A DNA stretch of 59,080 bases from Opitutales bacterium (GTDB lineage: Bacteria > Verrucomicrobiota > Verrucomicrobiia > Opitutales > Oceanipulchritudinaceae). The position numbers and the translations under genes are program-made. Shown here one piece after another: positions 7,720 through 43,147 of the stretch (position 1 is its first letter; each line of letters opens with the position of its first letter). The notes beneath the pieces were generated by a model that was not told where the DNA came from, made no database searches, and saw only the letters and a list, made by a program, of their open reading frames with translations. The DNA lies in contig JAFIGH010000021.1 of NCBI GenBank assembly GCA_020831525.1, forward strand, positions 1-59,080, in the 5' to 3' direction.

Positions 7720-7795
7720 AGGGAGGCGCAATTGGCTTTAATCAAGGCCTTGAGGGTGTCGCAAGGACTCCGTGGCGGGCTGCGCCTGCGTTTCG

Positions 7796-7831: not shown

Positions 7832-7878
7832 GCCCTGTTGGAGTGGCTCGGTGGGATTTTCTGTTCGATGCGGGTTTG

Positions 7879-7902
7879 GACACAGACAAGAATGTCTGTG
7901 TC
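7879..7902. repeat. Perfect 10-bp-arm palindrome (REP-like, possible bidirectional terminator)
   Basis: GACACAGACA (7879-7888), loop AGAA, TGTCTGTGTC (7893-7902). There is no flanking T tract, but the site between two convergent genes fits a transcription barrier or a REP element. Palindromes of this CACAGACA-type are common between genes in Verrucomicrobiota and Planctomycetota. Confidence 0.5.
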
Positions 7903-7953
7903 ACGTTGGGCCGTCGGCACACTACGGCAGGGCGCTGTTAAGCTGCGGTCTTT

Positions 7954-10845: not shown

Positions 10846-10875
10846 GAATTGCAACGGGCGGAGGAAGGGCCGCGA

Positions 10876-11907
10876 TCAGAGTTGCTGCCACTCACTCTCG
10901 TTCACCGACCACATCCAGCCGACCCATGCCGACTCGATCTGTACCCAGCCGGAGTCCGGTGACCAAAGGATCATCGCGGCATCGTGGCTGCCCCCGGCAT
11001 GAAACCACCACCCCGTCCCGGCCTGATAGATCCACGGATACTCCGCGAACCAGACGAGACCGAGCCAGTCCATCATCCCCACCTCCGGTGTAAGCACTTC
11101 GATGGCACCGAAGACGGGATCGTCCTGCACGCCTGTCGCCCCGCCGTCGAGCGGGTAGGGGTTGTGCGGTGGCGGCTCGTCGTCTTCGCGCAGAAAGACG
11201 GCCGTGGCACGCCAGCCGACATTCTGCCCTTGGTTTTCGACGATGACGAAGTCGCCTTCACCGGTCGGGTTGACCTCGATGAAGGATGTGAAGCCGACAT
11301 TACCGTTTTCATTGCCCGGCCAGTTGAAATAGGTGTTTCCGCTGGCGAGCACCTCACCGTTGGCATTGTAGAGGGTGGCCGTCATGCGCTGGAATTCGTT
11401 GAGGCCGTGGTTCCACCAGTGCAGCACGGTGAAGGGCTGCCCGCCTGTTTCGATGCGCCATGTGAACACCGTGTCTCCGGCAATGTCTCCGCCCCATGCC
11501 ACGCCGAAGTATTCCGATTCGAAGAAACCGTCGAAGGTCTCCCCCGGGTCGGTCGCATCGTCGAAGGAAAAGAAGGTCAGCGGTTGGTTGCGAAGGGTGT
11601 TGCTTCCGCTCTGGCCCGGGGTCTCGAAAATGACCGATTGAATGAGATCTGCGCCCGCCTTTTGAAATGCGAGCGCGGGCGGACCGCCGGAAACGTCCGG
11701 GACATAGTAGTCGTCGTAATCGGTGAGGAAGACCGGATCGTAAGAGGTGGCGTCCGCCGGCCACCATCCGAAGCCCATGGGGTCGGTCACGACAAAGAGC
11801 CGCGCCGGATCGTCGTTTTCCGTTTCGAAGGTGGATCCGCCCGGGAGTTGGCCGGAGGCGGAGGCTCCGAGGAGTGCTCCGGCGAAAAAAAAGAGGATGT
11901 GTTTCAT
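10876..11907 (-). CDS. Secreted protein with tryptophan-rich C-terminal domain
   Basis: A 343-residue protein of unknown function. The start at 11907 is set by a signal peptide (MKHILFFFAGALLGASASGQ); the open frame upstream has none. The middle part is beta-rich and acidic. The last 70 residues are packed with Trp (WLGLVWFAEYPWIYQ, then G-W-W-F-H, I-L-W-S-P, W-M-W-S). This matches the C-terminal domain of the upstream giant protein at 11925-17477 (WVPWLGWVSDSAFPWVYLHD), so both probably use the same surface-attachment or export module. The two genes are 17 bp apart on the same strand, so they form an operon. The domain pattern is common at the ends of secreted verrucomicrobial proteins; its role is not established. 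Confidence 0.75.
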   Translation of the reverse strand: MKHILFFFAGALLGASASGQLPGGSTFETENDDPARLFVVTDPMGFGWWPADATSYDPVFLTDYDDYYVPDVSGGPPALAFQKAGADLIQSVIFETPGQSGSNTLRNQPLTFFSFDDATDPGETFDGFFESEYFGVAWGGDIAGDTVFTWRIETGGQPFTVLHWWNHGLNEFQRMTATLYNANGEVLASGNTYFNWPGNENGNVGFTSFIEVNPTGEGDFVIVENQGQNVGWRATAVFLREDDEPPPHNPYPLDGGATGVQDDPVFGAIEVLTPEVGMMDWLGLVWFAEYPWIYQAGTGWWFHAGGSHDAAMILWSPDSGWVQIESAWVGWMWSVNESEWQQL

Positions 11908-11924
11908 GATTGAGTGTATTGGTT

Positions 11925-23372: not shown

Positions 23373-23550
23373 TGAAAGGCCGGTTGCCGCCTCCTCCGCG
23401 TATTGGAACCATTCGCTGTGATCGGCGGCAAACGCATGCACTCCTTTTCCGGTGGGAACCGAGCGGGTCCAACCTGGTGCGCGCGACAAGCGCGACCTGC
23501 TTCGTCCCCTTACCGGTCCTGCCGCCCCAACTCCAACCAACCATCCAAAC

Positions 23551-26418: not shown

Positions 26419-27831
26419 TCAGTGCCAACCCAACGGATTGGTTCCGCGCAGGGTTGCCCGGTCGGTCTTTGGGCGGCCGGCATTGACGAGTTGGCCGTCG
26501 GCGCAGGCGGGGTTGCCTTCGGACGTTAAATGCGAAATGAGCCGTTCCCGCAGGGGTTCAACCTCTGCGGGGTCGTCGGAGAGATCGGTATCGTCGCGCC
26601 GGTCGCCGGTCATATCAAACACCTGCTCCGCGCCGTCCTCCCCATAATAGAGGTATTTGCGGGTTTTGGTGCGGATCATGTGGTGCTCCCCCTGCTGGCC
26701 ATGGAGGAATTCCCGCACATCCGGGGCGGCATCGCGGATGAGGGGCATGAGGCTCACGCCGTCGATTCCCGCCGGGAGGGGCAACCCCGCGGCCTCCAGC
26801 AGGGTGGGATAGAGATCGACCAGGTCCACGAGGGCTTCACTGGTCCGGCCCGGCGGCAAGCCCCAGGCACGGGGAAACCGGATGATGAGCGGAATCCGCG
26901 CCGAGCCCTCGTAAAAGCTGCACTTGTGCGCGTCGTGGTAATCTCCGAGCTGTTCCCCGTGGTCGGAGGTGTAGACGATGAGGGTATTGTCCCACAGACC
27001 GTTGCGCTTCAGGCGCCCGAAGATGCGCTGTATCTGGTGGTCGATGTAGGTGATCATGCCGTAGTAGACGCTTCGCGCCTTGCGGATTTGGGCAGGGCTC
27101 ATCGGACCGGGATTGAACATCCAGCGGTGGTCGTGAAGCCATGCGGGGCACCGATCCGAATCGAGCCAGGCGGGAATGACGGGATCGGGGATCGGCGCGT
27201 TGTCGTACATCGAGTAGTAGGGCTCGTATGCCGTCAGGGGAGGGTGCGGGTTGTGGAGGGAAGCCCAGAGGAAAAAAGGCTGGCTGCGTTGCCGGGTTTC
27301 GAGGAACTCAAGACTTCGGTCCACCACCCAGTCGGTCAGGTGCAGGTGACGGGGTTCGGTGCACAATGTTGGGTGGAGTTCGTTAAAGCCCAAACCGTCA
27401 ACGAACGGGGCGGGCCGGTTGAGTTCCTGCATTCGCTGCCGGTGTAACTGGTCATAGGGGGTGATGTGCTCGAAGCCCGCACGGTCATCGGGATCAAGAA
27501 ACCAGTGGGTTTTGCCGATCAGCTCGGTCTGGTATCCACCTCTGGTGAGAAGAGAGGCGAGAAAGAGGTTGCGGTCGTGCCCGACACGGAACTCCGGCAT
27601 CCAGTCGGCGCATCCAAAATTGTGGCCGTGCCGTCCGGTGATGAGGGCCGTTCGGGCGGGGATACAAAGGGGACAGTCGACATAGGCACTGGTAAAGTTG
27701 ACCCCCTCGTAGGCCAGCTGGTCCATGTGGGGTGTCTGGATGCAGGGATGCCCGCTGCAGCCCAGAGTGTCGCCGCGGTGTTGATCGGCGGTGATGAAAA
27801 GGATGTTCGGCCCCGTGGGTGCGCTGTTCAT
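26419..27831 (-). CDS. Sulfatase (type I, formylglycine-dependent), cytoplasmic
   Basis: A 470-residue arylsulfatase-superfamily enzyme that hydrolyses sulfate esters. The metal-binding start NILFITADQHRGD and the sulfatase signature with Cys56 in CPLCIPARTAL are present; Cys56 must be converted to formylglycine by a maturase not seen in this window. Later motifs include GKTHWF, HNPHPP and YTSDHGEQLGD with its metal ligands. No signal peptide is visible, so it should desulfate imported oligosaccharides. It is the last gene of an rpiB - ADP-ribosylglycohydrolase-like - sulfatase operon (49 bp after the preceding gene). The sulfated sugar cannot be told from sequence by eye. Confidence 0.9.
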   Translation of the reverse strand: MNSAPTGPNILFITADQHRGDTLGCSGHPCIQTPHMDQLAYEGVNFTSAYVDCPLCIPARTALITGRHGHNFGCADWMPEFRVGHDRNLFLASLLTRGGYQTELIGKTHWFLDPDDRAGFEHITPYDQLHRQRMQELNRPAPFVDGLGFNELHPTLCTEPRHLHLTDWVVDRSLEFLETRQRSQPFFLWASLHNPHPPLTAYEPYYSMYDNAPIPDPVIPAWLDSDRCPAWLHDHRWMFNPGPMSPAQIRKARSVYYGMITYIDHQIQRIFGRLKRNGLWDNTLIVYTSDHGEQLGDYHDAHKCSFYEGSARIPLIIRFPRAWGLPPGRTSEALVDLVDLYPTLLEAAGLPLPAGIDGVSLMPLIRDAAPDVREFLHGQQGEHHMIRTKTRKYLYYGEDGAEQVFDMTGDRRDDTDLSDDPAEVEPLRERLISHLTSEGNPACADGQLVNAGRPKTDRATLRGTNPLGWH

Positions 27832-29860: not shown

Positions 29861-30673
29861 ATGCCCACCGGACCCCTCACGCCCTCACTTCTCAAGCACA
29901 TCGGTGTCATACCGTCGTTTCCCGCGGCACCGGGTTTCGATCCGGCTGCGCCCTATGTAAACAGGTATCGGATCTGGAGCATCACCTCGTTGGAGCCCGA
30001 AAATCACCTCGCCCGTGAAACCGGAATGCTCCGCATCGAACGATTGCCCATGCAGGAAAACTGTCTCAGTTTCCGGATTCTTCACCGGATTCTCCTTGAG
30101 GAATCGAACGGGTATGGGGGGCACAATGATGTGACCGTTGAGGTTCTGTGCGCAAACGATGCCCTGTCGACCCCGCTGGAGTGGAAACTGGAAAGCACTT
30201 TTACAATCGCCAATTCAGAACGCGACAACCTCTCCAGCAGAGAGACCGGGAAGTTTTCAAACCGGCAACTGACGCGTAGCGTCAATGGCATTGAATACAC
30301 CTTTGATATCAGCGGACGCCTTGCCGCCAACTGGTGTCTCTTCGACGCCCTTCAGCGGTCCATTTCCGACTCCCACGAGCCGTTCACGTTGTTTGAAGGG
30401 TTCAATCTTATTCGGGAGGGCCACCGGGTTCGCCGCCGTCCCGATCTCGATGAAGCGTTTGATACCGCTACCGGGAACCTCCGGTGCAGCACACAACTGG
30501 GCCGGGGAATTTTACCTTATGAATACTGGCTCGACAGCTCCAACCGCCTTGTCGCGGCTATAAGCGGAACCCGCATTTATTTTCTGGATGACAAGGCTGA
30601 AGAAGCCATTGCCGACCGGGAACACAACCAATTCATCTATTCGGGACGTGGCGCATGGATACCGAAAATTTAA
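29861..30673 (+). CDS. Conserved hypothetical protein coupled to a sulfatase
   Basis: A 270-residue protein I do not recognise. The ATG at 29861 is supported by a GGGAGA ribosome-binding site 11 bases upstream. There is no signal peptide or membrane segment. It is a soluble, mixed beta-rich protein with motifs such as YRIWSITSLEPENHLARETG, LEESNGYGGHND and LPYEYWLDSSNRLV. The last 19 bases overlap the start of the downstream sulfatase gene, so the two are translationally coupled and likely work together. The N-terminal half resembles a carbohydrate-binding or lyase-like beta-sheet only in a general way. It diverges from the rpiB/sulfatase operon. No function should be assumed. Confidence 0.8.
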   Translation: MPTGPLTPSLLKHIGVIPSFPAAPGFDPAAPYVNRYRIWSITSLEPENHLARETGMLRIERLPMQENCLSFRILHRILLEESNGYGGHNDVTVEVLCANDALSTPLEWKLESTFTIANSERDNLSSRETGKFSNRQLTRSVNGIEYTFDISGRLAANWCLFDALQRSISDSHEPFTLFEGFNLIREGHRVRRRPDLDEAFDTATGNLRCSTQLGRGILPYEYWLDSSNRLVAAISGTRIYFLDDKAEEAIADREHNQFIYSGRGAWIPKI

Positions 30674-31977
30674 GAAGCGAATCTCCGGATAACCGGCCCA
30701 ATATCCTGTTTGTCTTCACCGACCAGCAGCATTTTAATGCCGTTTCCGCATTCGGAAACCCGCACCTGCACACGCCATCAATGGACTGGATCACGCGGGA
30801 GGGTGTCCGGTTTACCAACTGCTACGCCACCGATCCTGTATGCGCGCCCTGCCGGTCCTCCATCTTTTTCGGGCGCATGCCCTGCGAGACGGGAGTCTAT
30901 AAAAATGAGCTCTGGCCCCTGGAGACGCTTCCCACCGTTGGGACGTGGCTCTCGCAAAACGCTGGCTACCGGAGTGTCTACTGTGGCAAGTGGCACCTTT
31001 TCCAGAGTGAAACATTTTCAATTCCCGGCTTCGAAGTCATTGGAACGGGTGCCAATTGTGAAGGGAATTTCACGGATTCCATCATTACACGGGCCTGCGA
31101 TGCCTTTTTGCACAGCCGCACCGGTGACGAGCCCTTCTTTCTCGTGGCCTCCTACCAGCAGCCCCACGATATCTGCGGATGGATCGATTTGAATCAGTAC
31201 AATGCGGAAAGGCTTCGGTACCCGGAAATCGCGCCCGAACTTCCACCGCTTTCGCCCACGCTCCGGGTCAGCCATGCGGAACCGGAGCTGATGCGCGAGA
31301 GGCGGGAAAACAATGCCGGTTGGAAAAACAACTGGAGTGAAGAGCATTGGAGATATTACGAATGGAGCTACAACCGTCAGGTGGAGATGGTCGATGCGGA
31401 GATTGGTCGCTTGTTCGAATCGCTTTTGCAAAGTCCACACGCCCGGAATACCGTAGTCATCTTCACCTCCGATCACGGAGAGGGACTCGGGCGGCACGGC
31501 TTTCAGGGAAAATCAGTGCTGTACGATGAAGCTGCCCGGTTGCCTTTCGTGATATGGCGTCCGGGCCACCTGCCACAGGGGGCCACCGCGCACCAACTGA
31601 TTTCCGCGCTCGATTTCATGCCCACCGTGTGCGGACTGGCCGGCATCTCACCTCCGGAAGATATGCGCCTTGGCCGGTCGATCATTCCTTTCGCCGCCAA
31701 CCCGTCGGCACCCTCACCAGAGTTCGTGGTCGCGGCCTGTCAAGCCAACCGGGGTCGGATGGTTCGGTCCATGAAAATGAAATATATCGTGTTCTCCAAT
31801 GATCCCGTCGAGATGCTCTTCGATATGGAAGCGGATGCCGGTGAAACCGTCAATCTGGCCGACAACCCCGATTATTCCGAAGAACTCCAGTGGCATAGAG
31901 ATACATTGGTGAAGTGGGAGCGGGAAATGGTTTACGCACCGGGTGTTCCACCTTTTGTCATGCCCTTTCCGCATTGA
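30655..31977 (+). CDS. Sulfatase 2 with an unusual CAPCR active-site motif
   Basis: A 440-residue type I sulfatase. It opens with the metal-binding NILFVFTDQQHFNAVSAFG and later has CGKWHLF, SYQQPHD and FTSDHGEGLGRHG, the remaining active-site blocks. The formylglycine site is Cys63 in VCAPCRSSIFFG. This fits C-x-P-x-R but has Cys where most sulfatases have Ser or Ala. There is no signal peptide, so it should act in the cytoplasm. Its start lies within the last codons of the unknown protein upstream. It converges on the giant lyase gene, whose terminator lies in the 74-bp gap. Maturation of the Cys63 site by an anaerobic or FGE-type maturase is expected from the family; the sugar is not known. 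Confidence 0.9.
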   Translation: MDTENLRSESPDNRPNILFVFTDQQHFNAVSAFGNPHLHTPSMDWITREGVRFTNCYATDPVCAPCRSSIFFGRMPCETGVYKNELWPLETLPTVGTWLSQNAGYRSVYCGKWHLFQSETFSIPGFEVIGTGANCEGNFTDSIITRACDAFLHSRTGDEPFFLVASYQQPHDICGWIDLNQYNAERLRYPEIAPELPPLSPTLRVSHAEPELMRERRENNAGWKNNWSEEHWRYYEWSYNRQVEMVDAEIGRLFESLLQSPHARNTVVIFTSDHGEGLGRHGFQGKSVLYDEAARLPFVIWRPGHLPQGATAHQLISALDFMPTVCGLAGISPPEDMRLGRSIIPFAANPSAPSPEFVVAACQANRGRMVRSMKMKYIVFSNDPVEMLFDMEADAGETVNLADNPDYSEELQWHRDTLVKWEREMVYAPGVPPFVMPFPH

Positions 31978-32051: not shown

Positions 32052-35000
32052 TCAGGGGAGGTCGATGGACAGGCGGAGGAAGCGGGGCTCGCCGGGGGCG
32101 AGGTCGGCGGTGTCTTCGATGGTGACTTCGCCTTCGGTGTTGGCTGCGCCGGTGGAGGTCCAGATGGGCTCCCCGCCCCAGTCGACAAGATCGGCGCTGG
32201 CCCAGACGGCATAGATGAGAGCCGGGTCGGCGATGCGGTCGAAGGTGAGGGTGGCGCGGAGACCGTCGGCGGTCAGGTGGTGGCCGGGCCGGGGGGCGAG
32301 GGCACCGGCGGGTGTGGTGGCGTCGCCCCCGAGGGCGTAGCGCTGGAGGTTGGGGACGCCCAAAGTGAGGTCGGCCGGTCCGCCGGAGATGTTGTTGTTG
32401 GCGACCCAATCGGCGAATCCACCACCACCGGGTGCGGCGGGGAGGAGGCGCAGGGCGGCTTCGAAGCGGTCGAAGACAAGGGCTTCGGGCGCGGGCGCAC
32501 CCATGTCGCGGCCAAGGAGGATACCGACGGCGGTGATGTCGGCGAATTTCTTCTCTTCCCAGGCGGCTTCCGCGGCCTCAAAGCGCAGGCCGGTGAGGGG
32601 ATTCCATTGGGCGAAGCGGCCGTCGGCGCGGTGGCTGGCGAAGGTCAGCTCGGGTGAGCCGGAGGCGGTCGTGGAGACGGCTTCGGAGACCCAGAACGAA
32701 CCCGCACCCTCTCGCACAAGCCAGCGCACATCGGCGGGCGCGCCGGGCACTTCGAGGCCGACGAGGCGGAGGAAGCTGTCGTCGCTGAAGACGGCGGTGG
32801 CGTCGTCGCCGCCGTTGAGGAAGTTGTCCTTTGTCCAGAGGGCGGCGAGGTGGAATTGGAAGAGGGGCTCGGGGAGGCCGGGCCGGACGTTGAAGCCGAA
32901 GATGCGCACGCTGCGGCCCTGATTGGTGGCGACGCGTTCGCCGTAGAGGCCGATGGCGGTGATGTTGCCGAAGACGCGGCTCTCGAAATCGAGCTGGGCG
33001 AGGGGGGCGACGGTATCGGTGCCGATGACGTTGGCGAAGAGCCGCACGGGGTCGCCGTGGACAGGGTTGTAGGGTGCCCACTGGATCGCATCGAGGGAGG
33101 CGATGTCGATTTGGCCGGGCTGGCCGAGGTACCATTGGTCGCCGTCGCGCACGGCGATGGCCCAGGATTGGGCTCCGCCGACGAGGGCTTCGACTTCGAG
33201 GGGGACGGCCGCCGCGTTGTGAGGTTCCTCCAGTTCCCACCAGACGAGACTGGCCCCGTGGTTGGAACCGCTGGCGGTGTTGTTGAGAAGGATGTGGTCG
33301 CCATCGGTTCCGCGCCCTTCAACGCGAAGGTGCATGTTGGGAGCGCTGCCCGCTTGCCACTCGGCAAGGGCATACCCGAAGTGGGGGCTCTCGGGCGGGT
33401 CGTCATAGTTCGTGTTGGTGACGACGGCGCTGGTGTGGGAGCGGTAGCGGAAGGTGCCTTCGGTGCCGCCAATGGAACCGGCGGGGGTGCTCGTAGCGGT
33501 GCTGCCGATACTCACGAAGCGGTTGTCGAGGATTTCGGATGAGGGACCCCAGGAGACGCGGGTGTTGGAACCGGCGGCGGGACCGCCCGCTTCTGGGAGG
33601 AGGCGGAAGCTGCCGCCGAAGGCGCGTTCGACGAGGACGACTTCATCCTGTGCGAGGGCCCCGACGCGGAGGCCGCCGTAAACGGGCACATCGCTGTAAT
33701 CGCCTGCCGTGGTGGTGAGGGGCGTGGTGAGGCTGAAGGGGAATTCAAGGAGAAGGTCGTCGGCCACGCCGTTGCCGGAAAGGTCGACGGCGCTCGCGAC
33801 GGGATCGGCTCCACCGCGGATGAGGCCGGGATGGGCGGTGCGCCCCCAGTCGACGACGAGGCGGCTGTCGGGATCTTCCGCCGTGACGGTCACGTGGATG
33901 AGGGCCTCGGTGTGGTCGCCGTCGTCATCGGTGAGGCGCAGGCGGATGGTGTATTCGCCGGGATCGGAGAAGCTGGCGGTGGCGAGCGGTCCGGTGGCGT
34001 CAAATGTGCCGTTGTTCGTGAAGTCCCATTCGAAGGCGACGATCTCGCCGTCGGGGTCGGAGGAGCCGGAGGCATCGAGCTGGACGGCGTGCGGGGCCTG
34101 GCCAATGAGGCGGCTGGTTTCGACGACGGCCACGGGCGGCTGGTTCGGCGGGGGTTCGCCGGTGACGACGACTTCGCGGGTCGTCACGTCGCTGTCTCCG
34201 CGATTGTCGGTCACGCGGAGGGCGGGTTCGTAGGTGCCGGGGAAGAGGTAGGTGAACTGGGCGGTGACGTCGCCCTCGACCCATGAGCCGTCGCCGAGGA
34301 AGTCCCATTCGTAGGTCTCGATGAAGCCGTCGGGATCCGTCGAGGCGGAGGCATCGAAGGTCACCGTGACGGGGGCCTGGCCGGAGGTGGGCGTGAGGGC
34401 AAAGGCGGCCGTCGGGCGGAGGTTGGCCCCCTCGGCGGAGACGATCTGGATGCCGGACGCGCCGGGGTCGCTCATCTGATCGAAGGTGATGACGAGATTG
34501 GCGGCGGAGACATCGCGGAAGACGACATAGGCGGGGCCATCGACGGCCTGGGCCGCGCCCGTGGCAGTGGATTCTTCCAGGATGCCGTTCCAGCCGCCGG
34601 TGTCGTCGCGGATGAATTTGGAGACGCCGCCAACGGTGATGCGCTGGGTGCGCGGAGGGCTGCCGCGGGCCCCGCCGAAGTAGATGTAGACGTCGTAGAG
34701 GGTGTAGGGGACGTCGGCGATGGTGTAGGTGGCGTTGGTGCCGTTGGCAAACCACTGGGTGCCGAGCATGCGGGCGAGCCCGTTGTCGACGGGTTGGGTG
34801 GCGTTGCGGAACTGGCGGGTGCCGGAGGCTTGCACGGAGACGGGCACGGTTTGGCCGAGGTTATCGGTCAGGTTGCCCGCTGCGGTGTTGCCCGTGAGGT
34901 TGTTCCAATTCCGGGCGGGCCGGGCACCGGCGTATTCGTAGGGCTGGAGATGGACGGGGAGGACGTTGGTCGTGAAGTTGAGGTTGATCGAGGGAATCTC

Positions 35001-38000
35001 GACCGGCGGGCGGGCGTCGACCATTTTGGAAACGGTGGCGCGGCCCCCGCGGTCGTCCGTCACGGTGAGGGTGACGGCATAGAGGCCGGGGGTGAAATTG
35101 TGGCTGGTGAGGGCTCCGACGGAGGCGATGCCGTTGCCGAAGTCCCAGCGGAACTCGATGGGATCGCCGTCGGGATCAAAGGAGGCGGAGGCATCGAAGT
35201 GGAAGAGGCCGCCCAAGTCCGTGATCTCAAAGGTGGCCACGGGATCGTTGTTCGTGAGGGGGCCGACGGCAATGGTGTGGGCGGGCGCGGCGGTAAGGTT
35301 GCCGAGGGTGTCGCGCACATGGAGGCGGGCCTCGAAGTTGCCTTCGGCGAAGTAGCGGTGGGTGACCACAGGGTTGGCCGTGTGGAGGGTCTGGCCGTCG
35401 CCGAAGTCCCAGAAATAGACCAGCGGGTAGCCGTCGGGGCTGATCGCGGCGCGGGCGTCGAAGGTCACGGGCTGGCGGCGCTCGGCGTCGGCCGGGGCGT
35501 CGAAGGCGGCAATGGGCGCGCGGATCTCGGGCTGGGCGGCGGCATCACCGAAAATCCCGATTTCATGGAGTTCCACAAACCAGCCCTGGGGAGACTGGGC
35601 ATGCGGCACGATGTCCCAGCGATAGCCGGAGTAGGCCGTTGAATTTTCCACCGGGAAGGATTTTGTGTAGCGGGTGAGGCCGCCCCAGTCGATGTCGTTG
35701 CGGACGTCGATCACTTCCCACGTGACCCCGTCGAGGGTGCCGCTGAAGACAACATCCTTTGGGTCGCGGTCGTTCCAGGCGGGGGGATTGGTGAGGGCGT
35801 ATTCATTGATCACGTAGGCATGGCGTTTGCCGGCGTGTTCGAAGTGCAGCTCGACGAAGCCCTCCTCGGCGTCGACGAGCCAGCGCCCGTTGTTGGGGTC
35901 GCCCCGGAAGAGCATATCCGGGCCGGTTGTGGGGAGGTATTGGCCATTCGCCGCGACGCGCTTGGCGTGGGTGCGGCTGTAGTCGAGGCGCGCGGGCGGG
36001 GCGACCACACGGAGGGTGCGCCCCACCGTGAACATGGCCCCCGAATCCGTCTGCACCGTCAGCGTGACGACATGGGTGCCGGCTCCGAAACTGTGCGATG
36101 CCGTGCGCCCGGCCCCGACAGCTCCGCCGCCAAAGTCCCAAAGGTAGTTGGTGATGGCACCGCCCGGGACGGAGGACGGGCCGGCCTCGAAGTTGAGGAG
36201 GACCGGTTGGCCGGGGGCCGGTTGGTGGAAGGTCTGCGTGCCCGGCGGATCATCGGGAACAAAGTTGACCGTCTCCGGCACAATCATCTGCGCGCGGTCG
36301 GGGCTGACGAGAAAGTCGATTTCAGGAAGGCCGGGTGCCCAGAAGAGATCCTCCGGCATGAAAGCGCGCAGGTCGAACTCCGGGCCGCCCCAGGCCATCT
36401 CGAGGAGCGGAAACCACTGCGCGGAGAGCGAATCGCTCGTGTGGAAGGCGATCTCAAAAGCGTGGTATCCGGCGGCGAGGCCGACGGTGGCTTGTTGGGT
36501 CACGGGGGCACCGTGCTTTTTTCCGCGCCCGGTGTCGATCACAGTGAGGCCGCCGAGGCGGAAAATGACGTTGTCGCGTACCCGCGCTTGGAAGGTGTGG
36601 GCGCCGCTTTCGGGCACCTTGAGGTAGCCGGTGAAACGGTAAGCGAAGCGATCGCTGGGTCCGCCGCGGATGTCGACATTGGGGATGACGCCCTGGTTGA
36701 GTGGGCTGAGGGTGTTGATGTTGCCCATCGTGCGGCCCCAGTCGGCGGCGTTGTAGACCTGGAAGACAACGCCCGGGAGGAGGGCCGGATCGGGCTCGGG
36801 GGAGAGGGGCAGCTCGGGCGCGCGCCGGCCCTGAGCGTCAAGCACGCTGAGGGGCTTCACGAGGACGGCGGACCCGCCCTGCGGATCGCTTACGGTGAGG
36901 CGCACCTGCGTATTGATGGCTTCGGTGTAGGTGTGGGTGGGGGTCGGGCCGGTGGCGGTGGCCCCGTCGCCGAATTCCCATGCAAAGGACAGTGGCTGAC
37001 CCTCGGGATCACTGCTTGCGGAGGCATTGAAGCTAATGGCCAGGGGGGCGTTGCCGCTCTCCGGGGAGAACGTAAAGGCGGGCACTGGGGGAAGATTTTG
37101 GATACGGATCGTGCGCGCGGTCGAGCGGATGTTGCCCTGCCCGTCGTCCACCGTGAGAACGACCTCGAAATTGCCGAAGGCGGTGAAGGTGTGGGAGGGC
37201 TGGACGCCGGTGCCGGTCTGGCCATCGCCGAAGTCCCAGGAGTAGGTGAGCGGATCGCCCTCCGGATCGCTGCTTCCGGAGGCATCGAAATTGACCGTCA
37301 CCGGGGGTAGACCGGCGGTGGAGCTGTGCGTGAAGGCGGGCGTGGGGGCCTGGTTGCCCACCTCAATGCGCTGGACCGCGCCGCCTGTGCCACCGTGACC
37401 GTCGGTTACGGTGAGGGCGGCGAAATAGGTGCCCTGCACCGTGTAGGTGTGGGACGCGGTGATACCCGTGGCGGGCGGCGAACCGTCCCCGAAGTCCCAG
37501 CTGAACTCAAGCGCGTGGCCGTCGGCGTCGGTGCTGGCGGAGGCGTCGAAGGTGACCGTGAGGGGCTCGTCGCCCTTGTCGGGGGTGGCCGTGAAAGATG
37601 CAAGGGGCGCGGTGTTGCGGGCGTCGAGGTAGTGGGTCGCGCGGGTTGTGGCACCCCCGCTGTGCTCGACCGTGAGGGTGACGGGCCAGACGCCGCCGGT
37701 GGCAAACGTGTGCGTGGGGTTGGTTGCGGTGGAGGTGTGGCCATCGCCGAAATCCCAGTGGTAGGCAGTCCCGCCGGGCGTCGGGGTGAAGTCGACGGCG
37801 AGGGGCACAGTGCCTCCGCGCGGATTCATCGTGAAACCGGCCACGGGATCTTCCGCCGATTCGATCTGCATACGCCCGGCGGCTTCGTTCCAGAGGATGC
37901 GCCGCCCGCCGAGGATCAGTTCGGCTTCGAGCCCTTCGCCGGTGATGCGCGCCTCCGGGGCGGCCCCTTTGCCCATGGCCATGACGACCCAGATGTCGGC

Positions 38001-39701
38001 GTCGTTGGCCTCAAAGGTGTAGGCGAGGGGATTGCCCTCGGAGAGCGTGCCGCCCGCCGGGTTGAGCACCCAGCCCTTGAGGTAGCCGTCGTCCTCACCG
38101 CGCAGGGTGAAGGTGGGCACGCCATTTTCCTCGCCCGTGAAGAGCGGCAGGGCCTGCTCGTTCAGCTGCCAGGCGTAGGTGCGCAGTTGCACGGAGGAGA
38201 GTTCGTCCAAGGTGGCGACGATGGCGATGTTGTCGTCGTCCGGATACGAGACCATGAGGTGGCGGCGGCTCTCGCTGAGGCCGAGGGCACTGAACTTGTT
38301 GCCCCCTCCGGCGATAGCGTAGCCGCCCTCTTCGTCCACTTCAAAGAATATCGCCTGGCCGGTGTTGGACTGTGCGGCGCGGGCCTGGCCGTCGACCGTG
38401 ACCTGCGAAAAGAAGCGCGCATCGCGCGAAGTGCCGGGTCCGCCCGCAAACTTGCTCCCGAAGCCCATGATGTTGACCTGGAGAGCGTCGGCCTCATTCC
38501 ATGCGGCGCCGTGCGAGGCGGTGTCGGTGGCGAGGGAGACGATGAGGTCGTCGGCGTCGTTCCAACTGCTGCGGAACCAATAGCCGCCGCGGTTATCGTG
38601 CAATCCATGGGGGAGCACGGTGGCCGGATCAACGGGCGGAACGTCTTGCGGGTAGAACATCATGGCGAGCACGGTGCCGGCGGAGTTTGGTTCGAACCGG
38701 GACGCCGGCGGGGCGGGGTTGAGGAGCCCGCGGTGGCGGTCGTAAAACCATCGGTAAGCCCCCAGCTTTTCTTCCGGCACGATCGCCATGAGCGCGGCGG
38801 TCCAGCCCTCGCGGCCAAAAGTGGCCCCGCCCACGCCCCACTCCGTGGACTGCTGCCGCGCATCAAACATGCCCCCGTACATCGGCAACAAGTGCATGTT
38901 TTTCTCCGCCGTGCGGGCGTCCAGGCGCGTGTCGCCGATCCGGCGAAGAGCGTGGATGGCGGGCACGAGGTAGAGCTGCGCGTAGGTCACGTAGTAATTG
39001 CCTTCCTGGGACCAGCCCGCGTTGCCGTAGTGGCTCATGTGCGTGTTCAGGCGGCTGACGATTGTGGAAAGGTGGCTTGCCCGTGCGTCCTGCTCGCCGA
39101 TAGCGATCATCTGTTGAATCTGCGAACCGTAGACGACGGCGTTCCAGTTGGAGGCATAGGGGCTTGCGTCGTTGTCGAAGCGCGATCCGGCCCCTTGCCA
39201 GTAGTCCAGGGAGGACTGGATTTTCCCCCGCACGAAGGCGCGCTGCTCCTCCGTCCAGCTATTGTAGGCCAGGTCATAGGCGAGGGCGAAGCTCCGGCCC
39301 ACATCCGCCCGCTCCAGACCCTTGCCCCCGGCACCATCCGGCAAAACGTTGCCGCTCAACGGGTCTGTATACATCACCGCCAACGCCTCGTAGGCGATAT
39401 CGGCGTAGGTCGGAATCTCCGTGACCGCGTAGACCATGGCCGCGCGCGCCGCGAGGTGGCCCCGCGCGTAATTGCGCGAGGGAAGCCCCCGTTCACCCCC
39501 GTCGATCACATCGAGGTAGTTCGCATCCACCTCTGCCTGAAGCAGGGCGAGCATTTCCGCGTGGCTGCTCCCCGGCTCCGCCGAGGCCTGCCGGATTTCG
39601 TCCAACCGGTCCGCTGAAATGAGCAGTCGGGGAAAGGTCTGGCCTGCAAGCGAGGCCACGGAAAACGCAAACAACAGAAAGGAAGCTATGAAGGATCTCA
39701 C
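32052..39701 (-). CDS. Giant secreted heparinase-like lyase with about nine PKD domains
   Basis: A 2549-residue secreted protein. GTG at 39699-39701 is used because the signal peptide begins there (VRSFIASFLLFAFSVASLAG, read Met); upstream in-frame codons run through the promoter region. Residues 25-350 form an (alpha/alpha) toroid (NSWTEEQRAFV, WSQEGNYYVTYAQLYLV) and 370-600 a heparinase II/III-type beta-sandwich (GGYWFRSSWNDADD, AWNEADALQVNI). PKD domains (WDFGDG-type cores) lie near 649, 735, 825, 910, 1190, 1433, 1520, 1800 and 1890. Between them are a PA14-like (987-1120), a discoidin-like (1237-1387) and a malectin/LamG-like (1570-1750) domain. A C-terminal FLRLSIDLP module ends it. The family cleaves uronate-containing polymers by elimination; the exact substrate (heparin-like, alginate, ulvan, fucoidan-type) is open. 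It ends in a strong terminator and diverges from the uxa operon. Confidence 0.85.
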   Translation of the reverse strand: MRSFIASFLLFAFSVASLAGQTFPRLLISADRLDEIRQASAEPGSSHAEMLALLQAEVDANYLDVIDGGERGLPSRNYARGHLAARAAMVYAVTEIPTYADIAYEALAVMYTDPLSGNVLPDGAGGKGLERADVGRSFALAYDLAYNSWTEEQRAFVRGKIQSSLDYWQGAGSRFDNDASPYASNWNAVVYGSQIQQMIAIGEQDARASHLSTIVSRLNTHMSHYGNAGWSQEGNYYVTYAQLYLVPAIHALRRIGDTRLDARTAEKNMHLLPMYGGMFDARQQSTEWGVGGATFGREGWTAALMAIVPEEKLGAYRWFYDRHRGLLNPAPPASRFEPNSAGTVLAMMFYPQDVPPVDPATVLPHGLHDNRGGYWFRSSWNDADDLIVSLATDTASHGAAWNEADALQVNIMGFGSKFAGGPGTSRDARFFSQVTVDGQARAAQSNTGQAIFFEVDEEGGYAIAGGGNKFSALGLSESRRHLMVSYPDDDNIAIVATLDELSSVQLRTYAWQLNEQALPLFTGEENGVPTFTLRGEDDGYLKGWVLNPAGGTLSEGNPLAYTFEANDADIWVVMAMGKGAAPEARITGEGLEAELILGGRRILWNEAAGRMQIESAEDPVAGFTMNPRGGTVPLAVDFTPTPGGTAYHWDFGDGHTSTATNPTHTFATGGVWPVTLTVEHSGGATTRATHYLDARNTAPLASFTATPDKGDEPLTVTFDASASTDADGHALEFSWDFGDGSPPATGITASHTYTVQGTYFAALTVTDGHGGTGGAVQRIEVGNQAPTPAFTHSSTAGLPPVTVNFDASGSSDPEGDPLTYSWDFGDGQTGTGVQPSHTFTAFGNFEVVLTVDDGQGNIRSTARTIRIQNLPPVPAFTFSPESGNAPLAISFNASASSDPEGQPLSFAWEFGDGATATGPTPTHTYTEAINTQVRLTVSDPQGGSAVLVKPLSVLDAQGRRAPELPLSPEPDPALLPGVVFQVYNAADWGRTMGNINTLSPLNQGVIPNVDIRGGPSDRFAYRFTGYLKVPESGAHTFQARVRDNVIFRLGGLTVIDTGRGKKHGAPVTQQATVGLAAGYHAFEIAFHTSDSLSAQWFPLLEMAWGGPEFDLRAFMPEDLFWAPGLPEIDFLVSPDRAQMIVPETVNFVPDDPPGTQTFHQPAPGQPVLLNFEAGPSSVPGGAITNYLWDFGGGAVGAGRTASHSFGAGTHVVTLTVQTDSGAMFTVGRTLRVVAPPARLDYSRTHAKRVAANGQYLPTTGPDMLFRGDPNNGRWLVDAEEGFVELHFEHAGKRHAYVINEYALTNPPAWNDRDPKDVVFSGTLDGVTWEVIDVRNDIDWGGLTRYTKSFPVENSTAYSGYRWDIVPHAQSPQGWFVELHEIGIFGDAAAQPEIRAPIAAFDAPADAERRQPVTFDARAAISPDGYPLVYFWDFGDGQTLHTANPVVTHRYFAEGNFEARLHVRDTLGNLTAAPAHTIAVGPLTNNDPVATFEITDLGGLFHFDASASFDPDGDPIEFRWDFGNGIASVGALTSHNFTPGLYAVTLTVTDDRGGRATVSKMVDARPPVEIPSINLNFTTNVLPVHLQPYEYAGARPARNWNNLTGNTAAGNLTDNLGQTVPVSVQASGTRQFRNATQPVDNGLARMLGTQWFANGTNATYTIADVPYTLYDVYIYFGGARGSPPRTQRITVGGVSKFIRDDTGGWNGILEESTATGAAQAVDGPAYVVFRDVSAANLVITFDQMSDPGASGIQIVSAEGANLRPTAAFALTPTSGQAPVTVTFDASASTDPDGFIETYEWDFLGDGSWVEGDVTAQFTYLFPGTYEPALRVTDNRGDSDVTTREVVVTGEPPPNQPPVAVVETSRLIGQAPHAVQLDASGSSDPDGEIVAFEWDFTNNGTFDATGPLATASFSDPGEYTIRLRLTDDDGDHTEALIHVTVTAEDPDSRLVVDWGRTAHPGLIRGGADPVASAVDLSGNGVADDLLLEFPFSLTTPLTTTAGDYSDVPVYGGLRVGALAQDEVVLVERAFGGSFRLLPEAGGPAAGSNTRVSWGPSSEILDNRFVSIGSTATSTPAGSIGGTEGTFRYRSHTSAVVTNTNYDDPPESPHFGYALAEWQAGSAPNMHLRVEGRGTDGDHILLNNTASGSNHGASLVWWELEEPHNAAAVPLEVEALVGGAQSWAIAVRDGDQWYLGQPGQIDIASLDAIQWAPYNPVHGDPVRLFANVIGTDTVAPLAQLDFESRVFGNITAIGLYGERVATNQGRSVRIFGFNVRPGLPEPLFQFHLAALWTKDNFLNGGDDATAVFSDDSFLRLVGLEVPGAPADVRWLVREGAGSFWVSEAVSTTASGSPELTFASHRADGRFAQWNPLTGLRFEAAEAAWEEKKFADITAVGILLGRDMGAPAPEALVFDRFEAALRLLPAAPGGGGFADWVANNNISGGPADLTLGVPNLQRYALGGDATTPAGALAPRPGHHLTADGLRATLTFDRIADPALIYAVWASADLVDWGGEPIWTSTGAANTEGEVTIEDTADLAPGEPRFLRLSIDLP

Positions 39702-39874
39702 GGGGAATGAATTTTCGGGGGGTGGGGGATAAAGAAACCGGCGGGCCGGAAAAACCGCGTCCGCAGGGTAGAGAAATTTTGTTTGTAGGTGCGGGGGCCT
39801 TTGGCGTCCAGCGAAAAAGAACGGCGCCCTGCGCATCCGGTCTCTCCGCCCGCATCGCGCGCGCTGACCCATCC

Positions 39875-39895
39875 GTGCGACGGTCGCCGTCGCAC
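39875..39895. repeat. Palindrome with 9-bp arms in the lyase/uxa promoter region
   Basis: GTGCGACGG (39875-39883), TCG, CCGTCGCAC (39887-39895). On the minus strand it is followed by GGGTCAGCGCG, a block shared with the repeats at 21921 and 23169, so it is probably a further relative of that REP-like family. The 374-bp gap between the lyase and the uxa operon also holds the operator at 39964 and nothing else I recognise. Confidence 0.45.
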
Positions 39896-39963
39896 CGCCG
39901 GTATTTTGGGACTGGACAGTATGGGCGGTAACCAAGTTCCGGATGTCTTCGATACGTCCTTCG

Positions 39964-39976
39964 CTCAACTGTTGAG
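39964..39976. promoter_or_regulatory. LacI-type operator between giant lyase and uxa operon
   Basis: CTCAACTGTTGAG has perfect CTCAA and TTGAG arms. It is centred 106 bp upstream of the first uxa gene (40076) and 269 bp upstream of the lyase start (39701). A further half-site (GGTTGAGC) follows at 39987. Confidence 0.7.
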
Positions 39977-40075
39977 TGAGGGTTCGGTTGAGCATGGAAG
40001 CGGCGACCGGGCAGGATTGCGGGCTTCAAACACGTTCCGCGCGATCCCCGCGAAGGGCGCTCACCCCGTGTATTC

Positions 40076-40390
40076 ATGAAACCGGTCAACACAGTTCTGC
40101 TCGCTTCCGGGGACAATGTCGTGGTGCTTGCCGCCAGTGCGGCGGCAGGAGACCGGGTGCGGCTTTCCGGACGGGAGCTTGCGCTGCCGGAACCGTTGGG
40201 GCTCGGGCACAAGCTCGCCGCCCACAACATCCCCGACGGCGAAAAGATCATCAAATACGGCGCTCCCATAGGCTCCGCCACCCGTGCCATATCCGCCGGT
40301 GAGCATGTCCACCTCCACAATATGCAAAGCGATTATCTACCGACGTACACGTTGGATGCGGAGCACCAGTTTCATTCCGCCAAATCATGA
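40076..40390 (+). CDS. UxaA-type dehydratase, small (SAF-domain) subunit
   Basis: A 104-residue protein with the SAF-type domain of the altronate/galactarate-dehydratase family: LSGRELALPEPLGLGHKLAA, DGEKIIKYGAPIGSATRAI and an HLHN motif that binds substrate or metal. In Escherichia coli UxaA this is the N-terminal part of one chain; here it is a separate gene. Its stop overlaps the start of the large subunit by ATGA, so the two are coupled. The gene starts the four-gene operon of dehydratase, SDR and aldolase and lies downstream of an operator. The substrate would be a sugar acid; L-fuconate is inferred from the third gene. SuyA (sulfolactate lyase) is a relative but the neighbours do not support it. 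Confidence 0.85.
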   Translation: MKPVNTVLLASGDNVVVLAASAAAGDRVRLSGRELALPEPLGLGHKLAAHNIPDGEKIIKYGAPIGSATRAISAGEHVHLHNMQSDYLPTYTLDAEHQFHSAKS

Positions 40391-41592
40391 CCCCTCCCAT
40401 CCATGGGTATCTCCGCAATGACGGTCGCAAGGGCATTCGCAACAATGTCGTCATCGCCTACCTCGTGGAGTGTGCCCACCACGTTGCCCGCGAGATCCAA
40501 TTGCCCTACCGCGACCGTGGTGTCCACCTCATCGGGTTCAGTGGCTGTTACCCCAATGAATATTCCTTTCGCATGATGCAGGCGCTTTGCACGCATTCGA
40601 ATGTGGGTACGGTTTTGCTTGTCTCGCTGGGCTGCGAGGGCTTCGACCGAAAGGGGCTCCTGAGCACGATACGGGAGAGCGGTCGCCCGGCGGAGCTACT
40701 CGTCATCCAGGACAACCGCGGCACCCGCGCCACCATTGCGGACGGGCGCGAATGGGTGGAGCGCGCGCTTGCTTCCCTTGCGGAGACACCGCGTGTTCCC
40801 ATGCCAATGGAGGAACTCGTGCTGGGCACGGTTTGCGGCGGCAGTGACGGTACCAGCGGCATCACGGCCAATCCCGGCATCGGGCGGGCTTTTGACCGCA
40901 TGGTGCAATCCGGAGCGACCTGTATATTCGAGGAAACCGGCGAACTCATCGGCTGCGAGCACATTATGGCGGCGCGGGCGGCGACGCCGGAGCTTGCCCG
41001 TGAGCTGAAGGCCTCGGTGGCCAAAGCAGCCCGGTATTACGCCACCCTCGGCCACGGCAGTTTCGCTCCCGGCAATGCCGACGGCGGGCTCACGACGCAG
41101 GAGGAGAAAAGCATGGGCGCTTACTCAAAGAGCGGCTCCTCGCCCATCTCCGGACTCATCAAGCCGGGCGACGTTCCCCGCGCGGGTGGTCTGTATCTGC
41201 TTGATGTGGTTCCGGACGGCGAGGTGCGCTTCGGCTTTCCGAACATCAACGACAATGCCGAAATCGCCGAACTGATGGCGTGCGGTGCGCACATCACCCT
41301 CTTTTCCACCGGACGTGGTTCAGTCGTGGGCTCCGCGATCGCTCCGGTTCTCAAAGTCTGTGCGAATCCCGAGACCTATCGACGGCTCACCGGGGACATG
41401 GATATCGATGCCGGGCGCATCCTTGAGGGCCGGGCCACCCTTGATGAGGTCGGCGACGAAATCTGCGAGCGTATTCTCGCTGTTGCGGGTGGAGAGTTGA
41501 CGGCTTCGGAGTCTCTCGGCCACCAGGAGTTTGTTCTTGGATACAAGAGCTTCGAGCCGGTGGGGCCCGCCTGCCACCCGACGTATCAGTAA
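40387..41592 (+). CDS. UxaA-type dehydratase, large subunit
   Basis: A 401-residue protein matching the large domain of altronate dehydratase UxaA and D-galactarate dehydratase. It opens GYLRNDGRKGIRNNVVIAYLV and has VLGTVCGGSDGTSGITANP, CIFEETGELIGCEH, GNADGGLTTQEEKSMGAYSK and FSTGRGSVVGSAIAPVLKVC. Conserved Cys residues in the family bind an iron-sulfur cluster or metal used to remove water from an aldonate, giving a 2-keto-3-deoxy acid. Length fits a separate large subunit (UxaA is about 495 residues with the SAF part fused). The 4-bp overlap with the small-subunit gene shows they are made together. It feeds, by inference, the SDR and RraA-type aldolase encoded next. Confidence 0.9.
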   Translation: MTPPIHGYLRNDGRKGIRNNVVIAYLVECAHHVAREIQLPYRDRGVHLIGFSGCYPNEYSFRMMQALCTHSNVGTVLLVSLGCEGFDRKGLLSTIRESGRPAELLVIQDNRGTRATIADGREWVERALASLAETPRVPMPMEELVLGTVCGGSDGTSGITANPGIGRAFDRMVQSGATCIFEETGELIGCEHIMAARAATPELARELKASVAKAARYYATLGHGSFAPGNADGGLTTQEEKSMGAYSKSGSSPISGLIKPGDVPRAGGLYLLDVVPDGEVRFGFPNINDNAEIAELMACGAHITLFSTGRGSVVGSAIAPVLKVCANPETYRRLTGDMDIDAGRILEGRATLDEVGDEICERILAVAGGELTASESLGHQEFVLGYKSFEPVGPACHPTYQ

Positions 41593-41622
41593 CCTTCACC
41601 CAACTCCGCACATCACCTCTTC

Positions 41623-42429
41623 ATGGATCTACAACTCAAAGACAAAGTCGTCATTGTCACCGGCGGGGCGCGGGGCATTGGCGAGGGGATCACCCGTGCC
41701 TTTGCCGCCGAAGGAGCGGTCGTCGCCATCTTCGGGCGCAATCCCGACGACGCCGCCAAAGTCGTGGGCCAGCTCGCTGCCAAGGGGCAGCGGGCCGAGT
41801 CGCATCCCGTCGAGATGACCGATGAGGCGGCCGTAAAGAAGGCCGTGGCGACCGTTGTCAAGCGACACGGGCGCATCGACATCGTCGTCAACAATGCCGG
41901 GGGGAACGATGCCGTCAGCCTGCGCCACCCCATCGAAGCGTTCCGCGCTTCGCTTGAAAACAACATTGTGCAATGCTTTTCCCTCGTGCACCACGCCCTC
42001 GACCATCTTATTGCCGCGCGCGGATGTGTTATCAATATCGGTTCAAAATGCGCCGCAACAGGACAGGGGGGGACCAGCGGATACGCCGCCAGCAAGGGGG
42101 CCATGAACGCGTTGACCCGTGAGTGGGCCCTCGACCTTGGCCGCCACGGCGTGCGCGTCAACTGTGTCATTCCAGCCGAGGTGATCACGCCGCTCTACGA
42201 ACGCTGGTTGGCGCAGGCCCCCGATCCGGAGGCTGCGCGGGCCCAATTGGAACAAACCATTCCCTTCGAACGGCGCACCACGACGGTTGAGGAAATTGCC
42301 GATACAGTCGTCTTCGCGGCTTCGCCTCGCTCGTCGCACACCACCGGGCAATTGCTTTTTGTCGATGGCGGCTATGTCCACCTCGACCGGGCCTGCACCC
42401 AACCCACCTCCCACCTCAAACAATCCTGA
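41623..42429 (+). CDS. SDR oxidoreductase, probable L-fucose dehydrogenase
   Basis: A 268-residue short-chain dehydrogenase. It has the NAD(P) motif TGGARGIG (13-20), NNAG (90-93), and the catalytic set Ser141, Tyr154 and Lys158 (GYAASKGA). Several blocks match the L-fucose dehydrogenases of the Burkholderia type, as recalled by eye: NIGSKCAATGQGGTSGYAAS, VRVNCVIPAEVITPLYERW and SHTTGQLLFVDGGYVHLDRA. These enzymes oxidise L-fucose (also L-galactose or D-arabinose) to the lactone. In the operon it follows the dehydratase by 30 bp and precedes the aldolase by 10 bp. A lactonase for the next step is not present here. A 2-keto-3-deoxy-acid dehydrogenase is an alternative role for the SDR. Confidence 0.85.
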   Translation: MDLQLKDKVVIVTGGARGIGEGITRAFAAEGAVVAIFGRNPDDAAKVVGQLAAKGQRAESHPVEMTDEAAVKKAVATVVKRHGRIDIVVNNAGGNDAVSLRHPIEAFRASLENNIVQCFSLVHHALDHLIAARGCVINIGSKCAATGQGGTSGYAASKGAMNALTREWALDLGRHGVRVNCVIPAEVITPLYERWLAQAPDPEAARAQLEQTIPFERRTTTVEEIADTVVFAASPRSSHTTGQLLFVDGGYVHLDRACTQPTSHLKQS

Positions 42430-42439
42430 CCCCCCCGCC

Positions 42440-43147
42440 ATGGACGCTGATAGCAACCCTGCCCCGGACCCCGCCAAGGCCGATTCAAAGGTGAACTACG
42501 CCGACGGCTATGCCGAGCGTTTGGAGGCCTGCTATAGCGGAGCGGTTTACGACGTGCTTCGCGGCATGGGTCTGCCCGACCAGATTCTCCCCCGCACCAT
42601 CCGTCCCCTTGATCCGGCCCGCGCACTCGCCGGGCGTATTTTCACCTTCAGCGGCCATGCCGACCATACGGTGGACGGGCACACGACCCTGCTCCAGTGG
42701 ACGCGCATGCTCTCGCGCGCTCCCTCGGGCAGTGTTGTGGTCTGCCAGCCCAATGATGACACCCTCGCCCACATGGGCGAACTCAGTGCCGAAACTTTCG
42801 TCTTCAAAGGTGTGCGCGGCTACCTCTGCGACGGAGGGTGCCGGGACACCGTGCGCATCCTCGAAACCGGCCTGCGGGTGTGGTCCCGCTACCAAACGCC
42901 ACGCGACGTCGTCGGGCGCTGGCTGCCGGACCGCTTCGGCGAACCCATCGTCATCGGCGGTGTGACCATCCGCACGGGCGACTACCTGATGGCCGACCGC
43001 GATGGTGCTTTGGTGATTCCCGCCGAGGCCATCGAAGAAGTCACCGCCAAGGTCGAAGAGGTGCTCAGCACGGAGAACAAAGTGCGCACGGCGATTCTTC
43101 AGGGAGTCGACCCGGTGGACGCTTACCTGAAATTCCGAAAGTTCTAA
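42440..43147 (+). CDS. RraA/HMG-aldolase-family pyruvate aldolase
   Basis: A 235-residue protein of the RraA-like fold that includes 4-hydroxy-4-methyl-2-oxoglutarate aldolases. It has the substrate- and metal-binding GYLCDGGCRD, with Arg135 and Asp136, which true aldolases keep. It lacks the features of the RNase E inhibitor RraA, so a class II pyruvate aldolase is likely. The ATG at 42440 lies 10 bp after the SDR stop. In the operon it could split the 2-keto-3-deoxy acid made by the UxaA-type pair into pyruvate and an aldehyde; for L-fuconate-derived acid that is L-lactaldehyde. This assignment is inference from order and family. Confidence 0.85.
   Translation: MDADSNPAPDPAKADSKVNYADGYAERLEACYSGAVYDVLRGMGLPDQILPRTIRPLDPARALAGRIFTFSGHADHTVDGHTTLLQWTRMLSRAPSGSVVVCQPNDDTLAHMGELSAETFVFKGVRGYLCDGGCRDTVRILETGLRVWSRYQTPRDVVGRWLPDRFGEPIVIGGVTIRTGDYLMADRDGALVIPAEAIEEVTAKVEEVLSTENKVRTAILQGVDPVDAYLKFRKF

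Follow-up and report, generated by a model that had tools for sequence, protein, structure and literature searches.

A four-gene operon of an Opitutales bacterium with a predicted phosphate-free route for L-fucose and an RraA-fold protein as candidate aldolase

We analyzed a 59,080 nt stretch of DNA from an Opitutales bacterium of the phylum Verrucomicrobiota (contig JAFIGH010000021.1 of assembly GCA_020831525.1; hereafter the window), which carries an operon of four genes at positions 40076-43147. L-Fucose is a sugar of seaweed and mucus, and the four genes, judged by their sequences, very probably break it down by a known phosphate-free route. In the fuller reading, to which sequence comparison and a predicted structure lead us to give a probability of roughly 0.6, the operon would encode three steps of non-phosphorylative L-fucose breakdown, with the RraA-fold protein acting as a class II L-2-keto-3-deoxyfuconate (L-KDF) aldolase. 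The pathway appears to be known and the RraA-family end enzyme to be its new part. What we observed are the families and linkage of the genes, their conserved residues and a predicted fold; from these we infer all substrates and reactions. The four genes are:

40076..40390, + strand: SAF-domain small subunit (104 aa) of a split UxaA/GarD-type dehydratase (PF08666)
40387..41592, + strand: large subunit ("UxaC", 401 aa) of the UxaA/GarD-type dehydratase (PF04295 + PF20629)
41623..42429, + strand: short-chain dehydrogenase/reductase (SDR, 268 aa), probable L-fucose 1-dehydrogenase (NF052481)
42440..43147, + strand: RraA-fold protein (235 aa), probable class II L-KDF aldolase (PF03737)

All four genes lie on the same strand, start with ATG and have no internal stops. 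The SAF and large-subunit genes overlap by 4 bp, and gaps of 30 bp and 10 bp follow between the large-subunit and SDR genes and between the SDR and RraA genes, so that the coordinates bear out the gene positions and spacing given in a first-pass annotation of this DNA. The GC fraction in the four genes is 0.70-0.78 at third codon positions versus 0.45-0.49 at second positions. A scan for promoters and terminators did not rise above shuffled sequences (0 promoters versus a mean of 0.6; 3 terminators versus a mean of 2.9), and folding the RNA of the 30-bp gap revealed nothing unusual (z 1.34). The operon itself contains no gene for a regulator, a transporter, a lactonase or an enolase-type dehydratase, and neither the L-KDF dehydrogenase of route III nor an FAH-type hydrolase is among its genes. 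A single lactonase query matched nothing in the window at E 1e-5, in line with the lack of a lactonase noted in the first pass.

In the proposed route, the SDR would convert L-fucose to L-fucono-lactone, which would open to L-fuconate either spontaneously or by an amidohydrolase encoded elsewhere in the genome. The SAF/UxaA-type pair would dehydrate L-fuconate to L-KDF, and the RraA-fold protein, as a divalent-metal class II pyruvate aldolase, would cleave this to pyruvate and L-lactaldehyde. The L-lactaldehyde might then pass to the microcompartment with aldehyde dehydrogenase that the genome seems to encode. The same substrate, and a non-phosphorylative route to the same products, had been put forward in the first-pass annotation, and the SDR model and the conserved neighbours described below support it.

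The SDR is probably an L-fucose 1-dehydrogenase. Its likeness to L-fucose dehydrogenases, already remarked from the bare sequence, holds against the NCBI equivalog NF052481 (FucosDh, L-fucose dehydrogenase), which it passes with 352.2 bits at a cut-off of 300, and it is the only one of 21 NF052481 matches in its own genome to do so. It also passes the general model PRK08628 "SDR family oxidoreductase" (364.4 bits, cut-off 307), and its closest PDB relative is 4gkb (288.6 bits, residues 1-258).

The two preceding genes probably encode an L-fuconate dehydratase, as their domains and gene context suggest. The SAF subunit scores 29 bits with PF08666 (cut-off 21) and the large subunit 95.4 bits with GD_AH_second and 268.5 bits with GD_AH_C (PF04295, PF20629), both over cut-off. 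The SAF, second and C-terminal domains of the UxaA/GarD superfamily are all present, spread over two genes, in agreement with the split UxaA-type enzyme first annotated here. The pair lies beside the SDR in the window and near a fucose-type gene in 29 of 35 large-subunit-linked relatives. Nine plasmid records contain a match to the large subunit with an identity of 59% or above; in the five that were opened, the corresponding proteins are 63.5-71.3% identical to it, and two of the clusters hold a FucP gene or homologue. Galactarate and altronate give their names to the Pfam and NCBIfam families of the pair, and the PDB search turned up a single relative, galactarate dehydratase 6u7l (139.6 bits). 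We therefore considered an ordinary operon for altronate or galactarate, in which the pair would serve hexuronate or hexarate breakdown and the SDR would be a generic sugar dehydrogenase. This reading is very improbable, and a plain operon of this kind was rejected: the galactarate dehydratase equivalog TIGR03248 is missed by far (188.9 and 29.1 bits versus 730.85, the score falling in two parts because TIGR03248 models one long chain), and fucose-type genes recur in the neighbourhoods.

For the RraA-fold protein, aldol cleavage is the likeliest chemistry because its predicted fold resembles that of the HMG/CHA aldolase 3noj, the catalytic Arg-Asp pair is aligned and the surrounding motif is kept throughout its relatives. 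The protein scores 91.1 bits with PF03737 (RraA-like; cut-off 24.5), and AlphaFold predicts its structure with high confidence (pLDDT 93.4). The twelve top-ranking structure matches listed for the model are all RraA-like, and the match to 3noj has a Foldseek E value of 1.2e-17 (Z 24.1, root-mean-square deviation 2.1 over 204 residues). The Arg-Asp pair that the first reading had picked out is R135-D136, which aligns with Arg-123/Asp-124 of 3noj; in the HMG/CHA aldolase these two residues have been assigned to enolate stabilisation and metal binding (PMC5065237). E114, R135 and D136 are invariant in 62/62 rows of the structure alignment (the window and 61 of 76 usable GTDB relatives), and Gly-Glu-x20-Arg-Asp occurs in 77/77 relatives of at least 200 residues, 4/81 rows being shorter than this and excluded from the motif count and the tree.

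To place the RraA protein in its genomic setting, GTDB was scanned with a two-sequence RraA alignment, which yielded 234 confirmed loci. The counts use the best 80 of the 234, among which close relatives are over-represented because the ranking is by similarity to the window; organism names are those of the records, many of which are metagenome bins. A large subunit at least 50% identical to that of the window lies within 4 kb of the RraA gene in 35 of the 80, across several phyla and always on the same strand (35/35). No large subunit was near any of 28 control loci from the same phylum, whose RraA-family proteins are about 32-39% identical; the control flanks are shorter (about 0.25-1.5 kb), and at equal reach the figures are 32/80 for the family versus 0/28 for the controls. 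The RraA gene comes first in 34/35 linked loci, with the SAF gene directly adjacent in 30/35; in the window it is last, so the genes have been reordered without being separated. An SDR that shares 50% identity or more with that of the window accompanies 14 of the 35.

Fucose markers, namely homologues of the L-fucose-dehydrogenase-like SDR, lactonase-type amidohydrolase, FucP, GH29 and GH95, were then counted within 8 kb at 70 or 120 bits. At least one is near in 29/35 large-subunit-linked loci at either threshold, versus 8/45 (70 bits) and 6/45 (120 bits) of the loci that have no large subunit. The six marker-free linked loci are L038, L048, L059, L072, L091 and L115, of which L038, L048 and L115 end at a nearby contig end and L048 has a cut SDR (64%). 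Representative neighbours identified by family model are the FucP equivalog, PF01120 (GH29) and GH95 fucosidases, a PF05336 mutarotase, a PF01557 hydrolase, an IclR regulator and a PF04909 amidohydrolase, the last with 127.9 bits in the fuconolactonase equivalog, below its cut-off of 400. In locus L042 (13.7 kb), the genes for mutarotase, RraA, SAF subunit, large subunit, SDR and lactonase are consecutive, and no other end enzyme among the kinds searched is present. Pedobacter steynii (L076) has a cluster of RraA, SAF subunit, large subunit, FucP and GH29 genes. When 78 RraA proteins are arranged in a tree, explaining the label "large subunit plus dehydrogenase" requires 8 changes, 6 of them forced by well-supported branches, while shuffled labels require 14.0 on average and none of 500 shuffles was as low as 8. 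Thus, the linkage is clustered but not limited to one lineage.

Several observations weigh against L-fucose breakdown with RraA as the aldolase. Seven NCBIfam models match the RraA protein and none reaches its cut-off, those for HMG/CHA aldolases being missed at 55.5 versus 304.5 bits (TIGR02798, LigK) and 69.8 versus 179 bits (NF006731). The Asp of 3noj that aligns with E114 is Glu in the window protein, and an RraA-like enzyme of alginate breakdown is described as a dehydratase/decarboxylase, not an aldolase (PMC8563752). Forty-five of the 80 RraA loci have no large subunit within 4 kb, some through contig ends, and a relative on a Microvirga plasmid (53.6%) lies among other sugar-acid genes, so the RraA subfamily is not restricted to fucose. 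Close RraA relatives are rare among 288 genomes of the phylum: they were found in the source genome itself, in G194 (57%) and as a fragment in G015, where the match covers 58 residues and the 4.2-kb contig shows no large subunit. In 10/35 linked loci another end enzyme accompanies RraA. The source genome also encodes a dihydrodipicolinate synthase (DHDPS)-family aldolase beside a shell-protein gene (contig C150; 77% identical to that of locus L051), and its lactonase homologue, on contig C167, reaches 129.1 bits with the fuconolactonase equivalog, far below the cut-off of 400. In Campylobacter jejuni, a knockout reportedly indicated that Cj0483, a member of the split pair in its L-fucose cluster, is not essential for fucose use (PMC9100392).

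The additional end enzymes fall into three sets. A DHDPS-family protein with a tandem-BMC shell protein occurs in 3/35 linked loci (L039, L051 and L089), an FAH-type hydrolase with a protein closely homologous to the second route III dehydrogenase in 5/35, and an FAH-type hydrolase with only a distant SDR in 2/35 (L049 and L050). Assignment to route III is based on gene order and on an FAH protein that scores 352.6/500 bits with a didehydro-deoxyrhamnonate hydrolase model. Because other end enzymes adjoin RraA in these 10 loci, its reaction stays inferred, and together with the DHDPS protein of the source genome they keep alive a second account of the same pathway and sugar. Here the DHDPS-family aldolase encoded elsewhere would cleave L-KDF, and RraA would help at this same intermediate (by ring opening or enol-keto tautomerisation of the keto-deoxy acid, in the manner of YhcH) or cleave a side product. 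YhcH is a helper for sialic acid aldolase. An anomerase serving an aldolase has been published (PMC8141875), and RraA does adjoin the dehydratase genes whichever end enzyme is present. We nevertheless consider such a helper role rather unlikely. RraA is the sole end enzyme among the kinds searched in 25/35 linked loci, and in 19/24 of those flanked by 4 kb or more in each direction. Genome G194 has RraA, the dehydratase pair and a FucP homologue but no DHDPS homologue at E 1e-30. Conversely, genome G143, of the same order, carries consecutive genes for SAF subunit, large subunit, SDR, FucP, lactonase, DHDPS aldolase and shell protein and has no RraA match at E 1e-20; an operon of this kind without RraA does not imply an indispensable helper step. 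The RraA protein also keeps the residues of a pyruvate aldolase.

The five opened plasmid clusters lack this RraA subfamily within 7 kb; an FAH-type hydrolase is present in those of Ponticoccus and Caballeronia, and SDRs resembling the second dehydrogenase (37-43%) in those of Ponticoccus, Sphingomonas and Sphingobium. It looks as though end enzymes have been exchanged within a common pathway, which favours an aldolase role for RraA. A wider proposal, on which we hold the odds to be about even, is that RraA-fold, metal-dependent L-KDF aldolases form a so far unrecognised type of end enzyme for non-phosphorylative fucose breakdown, spread over Verrucomicrobiota, Bacteroidota, Acidobacteriota and other phyla. 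In homologous operons they would be swapped with a DHDPS-family aldolase, and the tail of the latter, like the shell gene next to it, hints at release of L-lactaldehyde within a microcompartment. Microcompartment-targeting peptides are an established concept. When five DHDPS C-termini were tested as targeting tails by their helical moment, 5, 70, 100, 131 and 240 of 500 shuffles were as high, which is not convincing support on its own, and the similar tail motif is an observation made by eye.

Members of the same RraA subfamily occur without the UxaA pair in Chloroflexota, including SAR202 (L095, L100, L101, L104, L105, L106, L108, L111 and L114), some of these loci having enolase-superfamily genes nearby. 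A different RraA-family protein (30% identical; PF03737 119 bits) lies beside the UxaA pair in the opened Rhizobium plasmid cluster (L144, 6026-6649), and by eye others adjoin dehydrogenase genes (L058, 11095-11763) or an SDR gene (L063, 14640-15338). RraA-fold proteins may thus have joined sugar-acid genes repeatedly.

The remainder of the source genome (5.30 Mb in 184 contigs) was searched for further parts of the route. FucP is encoded on contig C76 (553 bits, cut-off 280.4), and there are four GH29 fucosidase matches, the last barely above cut-off, two matches to rhaM-type mutarotases and one FAH homologue (46% over residues 63-279). The C167 lactonase is 49% identical to that of L042. An enolase-type L-fuconate dehydratase homologue on contig C54 scores 341 bits to 2hne and 353 bits to mitochondrial enolase superfamily member 1 (4a35), reaches no NCBIfam equivalog, and sits with an SDR and a rhaM-type mutarotase. 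Given this homologue and the C150 aldolase on other contigs, the operon need not be the only L-fucose route of the genome.

The enolase-type homologue, which could serve fucose, bears also on whether the operon itself acts on a different sugar of the same C2-C4 configuration, such as L-galactose or D-arabinose, with RraA releasing L-glyceraldehyde or glycolaldehyde. Published enzymes show such breadth: a UxaA-family dehydratase acted on D-arabinonate, D-altronate, L-fuconate and L-galactonate at 100/12/5.6/2.4%, its altronate product differing from the normal dehydration product (PMC6336799), and C. jejuni FucX accepts D-arabinose as well as L-fucose (PMC12566272). The NF052481 model is named for L-fucose dehydrogenase, however, and GH29/GH95 fucosidases and FucP adjoin the RraA and large-subunit genes in Bacteroidota and other relatives, so that we regard another sugar as unlikely and retain L-fucose as the proposed substrate.

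Other features of these contigs were noted. The C167 lactonase (L127, locus 6501-12323) lies beside CoA-transferase, MaoC, Gfo/Idh, solute-binding-like and IclR homologues, and a set of class III CoA-transferase, MaoC-type, Gfo-Idh, solute-binding-like and IclR genes recurs in L127, L042 and L141 (a Ponticoccus plasmid) with lactonase, rhaM-type or UxaA-type genes. In the C150 locus (L150, 6259-8230, minus strand), the DHDPS-family aldolase gene adjoins a tandem-BMC shell gene; its open frame, by eye, first shows a lactonase-like start and end, as if an upstream lactonase had lost its middle, and the order lactonase, DHDPS, shell gene is seen in L039 and G143. The C117 locus (L149, 9414-16054) holds three BMC-domain genes, an EutN-type vertex gene, and acetate-kinase-like, aldehyde dehydrogenase, class II aldolase and lactate/malate dehydrogenase genes. 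Upstream of the operon, the window encodes two sulfatases (26419-27831 and 30655-31977), a TonB-dependent receptor (23452-26106) and a very large protein (32052-39995) that has nine PKD_4 stretches and a PA14 domain. These upstream genes would fit the breakdown of sulfated polysaccharides. Sulfated polysaccharides of algae that are rich in fucose resist degradation, and Verrucomicrobiota have been described as specialists on them (PMC8857213). Naming the end enzyme would make the route recognisable in genomes annotated only with "RraA family protein" and would provide another type of pyruvate aldolase for synthesis. The swap between RraA and the shell-associated DHDPS type in similar operons makes the question of why lactaldehyde is compartmentalised directly testable.

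Watanabe 2020 reportedly described a route I non-phosphorylating L-fucose pathway, with Veillonella ratti as an example. Route I comprises FucA, FucB, FucC and FucH, and its end enzyme is FucH, an L-KDF aldolase of the DHDPS family; the window operon has the RraA-fold protein in its place, with a DHDPS homologue on C150. In C. jejuni, route I resembles the operon, at the level of families, in its SDR-type L-fucose dehydrogenase and its two-gene altronate-dehydratase-type enzyme. Its published scheme ends in pyruvate and L-lactaldehyde (PMC11199699), the products proposed for the operon. The C. jejuni L-fucose cluster (cj0481-cj0490) contains the split altronate-dehydratase-type pair Cj0482/Cj0483 (PMC12566272, PMC9100392) and dapA, a putative dihydrodipicolinate synthase gene (PMC12566272). 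In Paraburkholderia mimosarum, A19U_RS0100650/655 were proposed from gene context as a two-subunit L-fuconate dehydratase (PMC6336799); compared at the superfamily level, they are, like the window pair, heteromeric members of the altronate/galactarate dehydratase superfamily. The first-pass annotation ascribed an enolase-type fuconate dehydratase to the known bacterial routes, which is therefore wrong as a general rule. Its claim of novelty divides: route I has been published, as have split UxaA-type enzymes encoded in L-fucose clusters, while an RraA-type enzyme in an L-fucose route is not reported in the literature searched, which covered few subscription papers. Hence the pathway is known and the RraA slot new.

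The HMG/CHA aldolase 3noj shares its fold and Arg-Asp pair with the window RraA protein; the two differ in substrate and are 24-25% identical, in addition to the Asp/Glu difference and the missed LigK model. The DHDPS-plus-shell arrangement may already have been described in two papers cited in PMC12263773, one from 2024 whose title announces a novel L-fuconate dehydratase and one from 2020 that deals with Verrucomicrobia of sponges and reportedly with the non-phosphorylated route; the main text of a microcompartment catalogue mentions neither PF00701 nor DHDPS (PMC8217296). Verrucomicrobial fucose use has been attributed to a microcompartment pathway (PMC8857213). This Planctomycetes-Verrucomicrobia microcompartment (PVM) pathway for fucose and rhamnose proceeds via L-fuculose-1-phosphate and a PF00596 aldolase (PMC8857213, PMC8217296), whereas the source genome has no match to FucI (TIGR01089). 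The PVM pathway and the proposed route share L-lactaldehyde as an intermediate, and C117 of the source genome carries shell, aldehyde dehydrogenase and class II aldolase genes.

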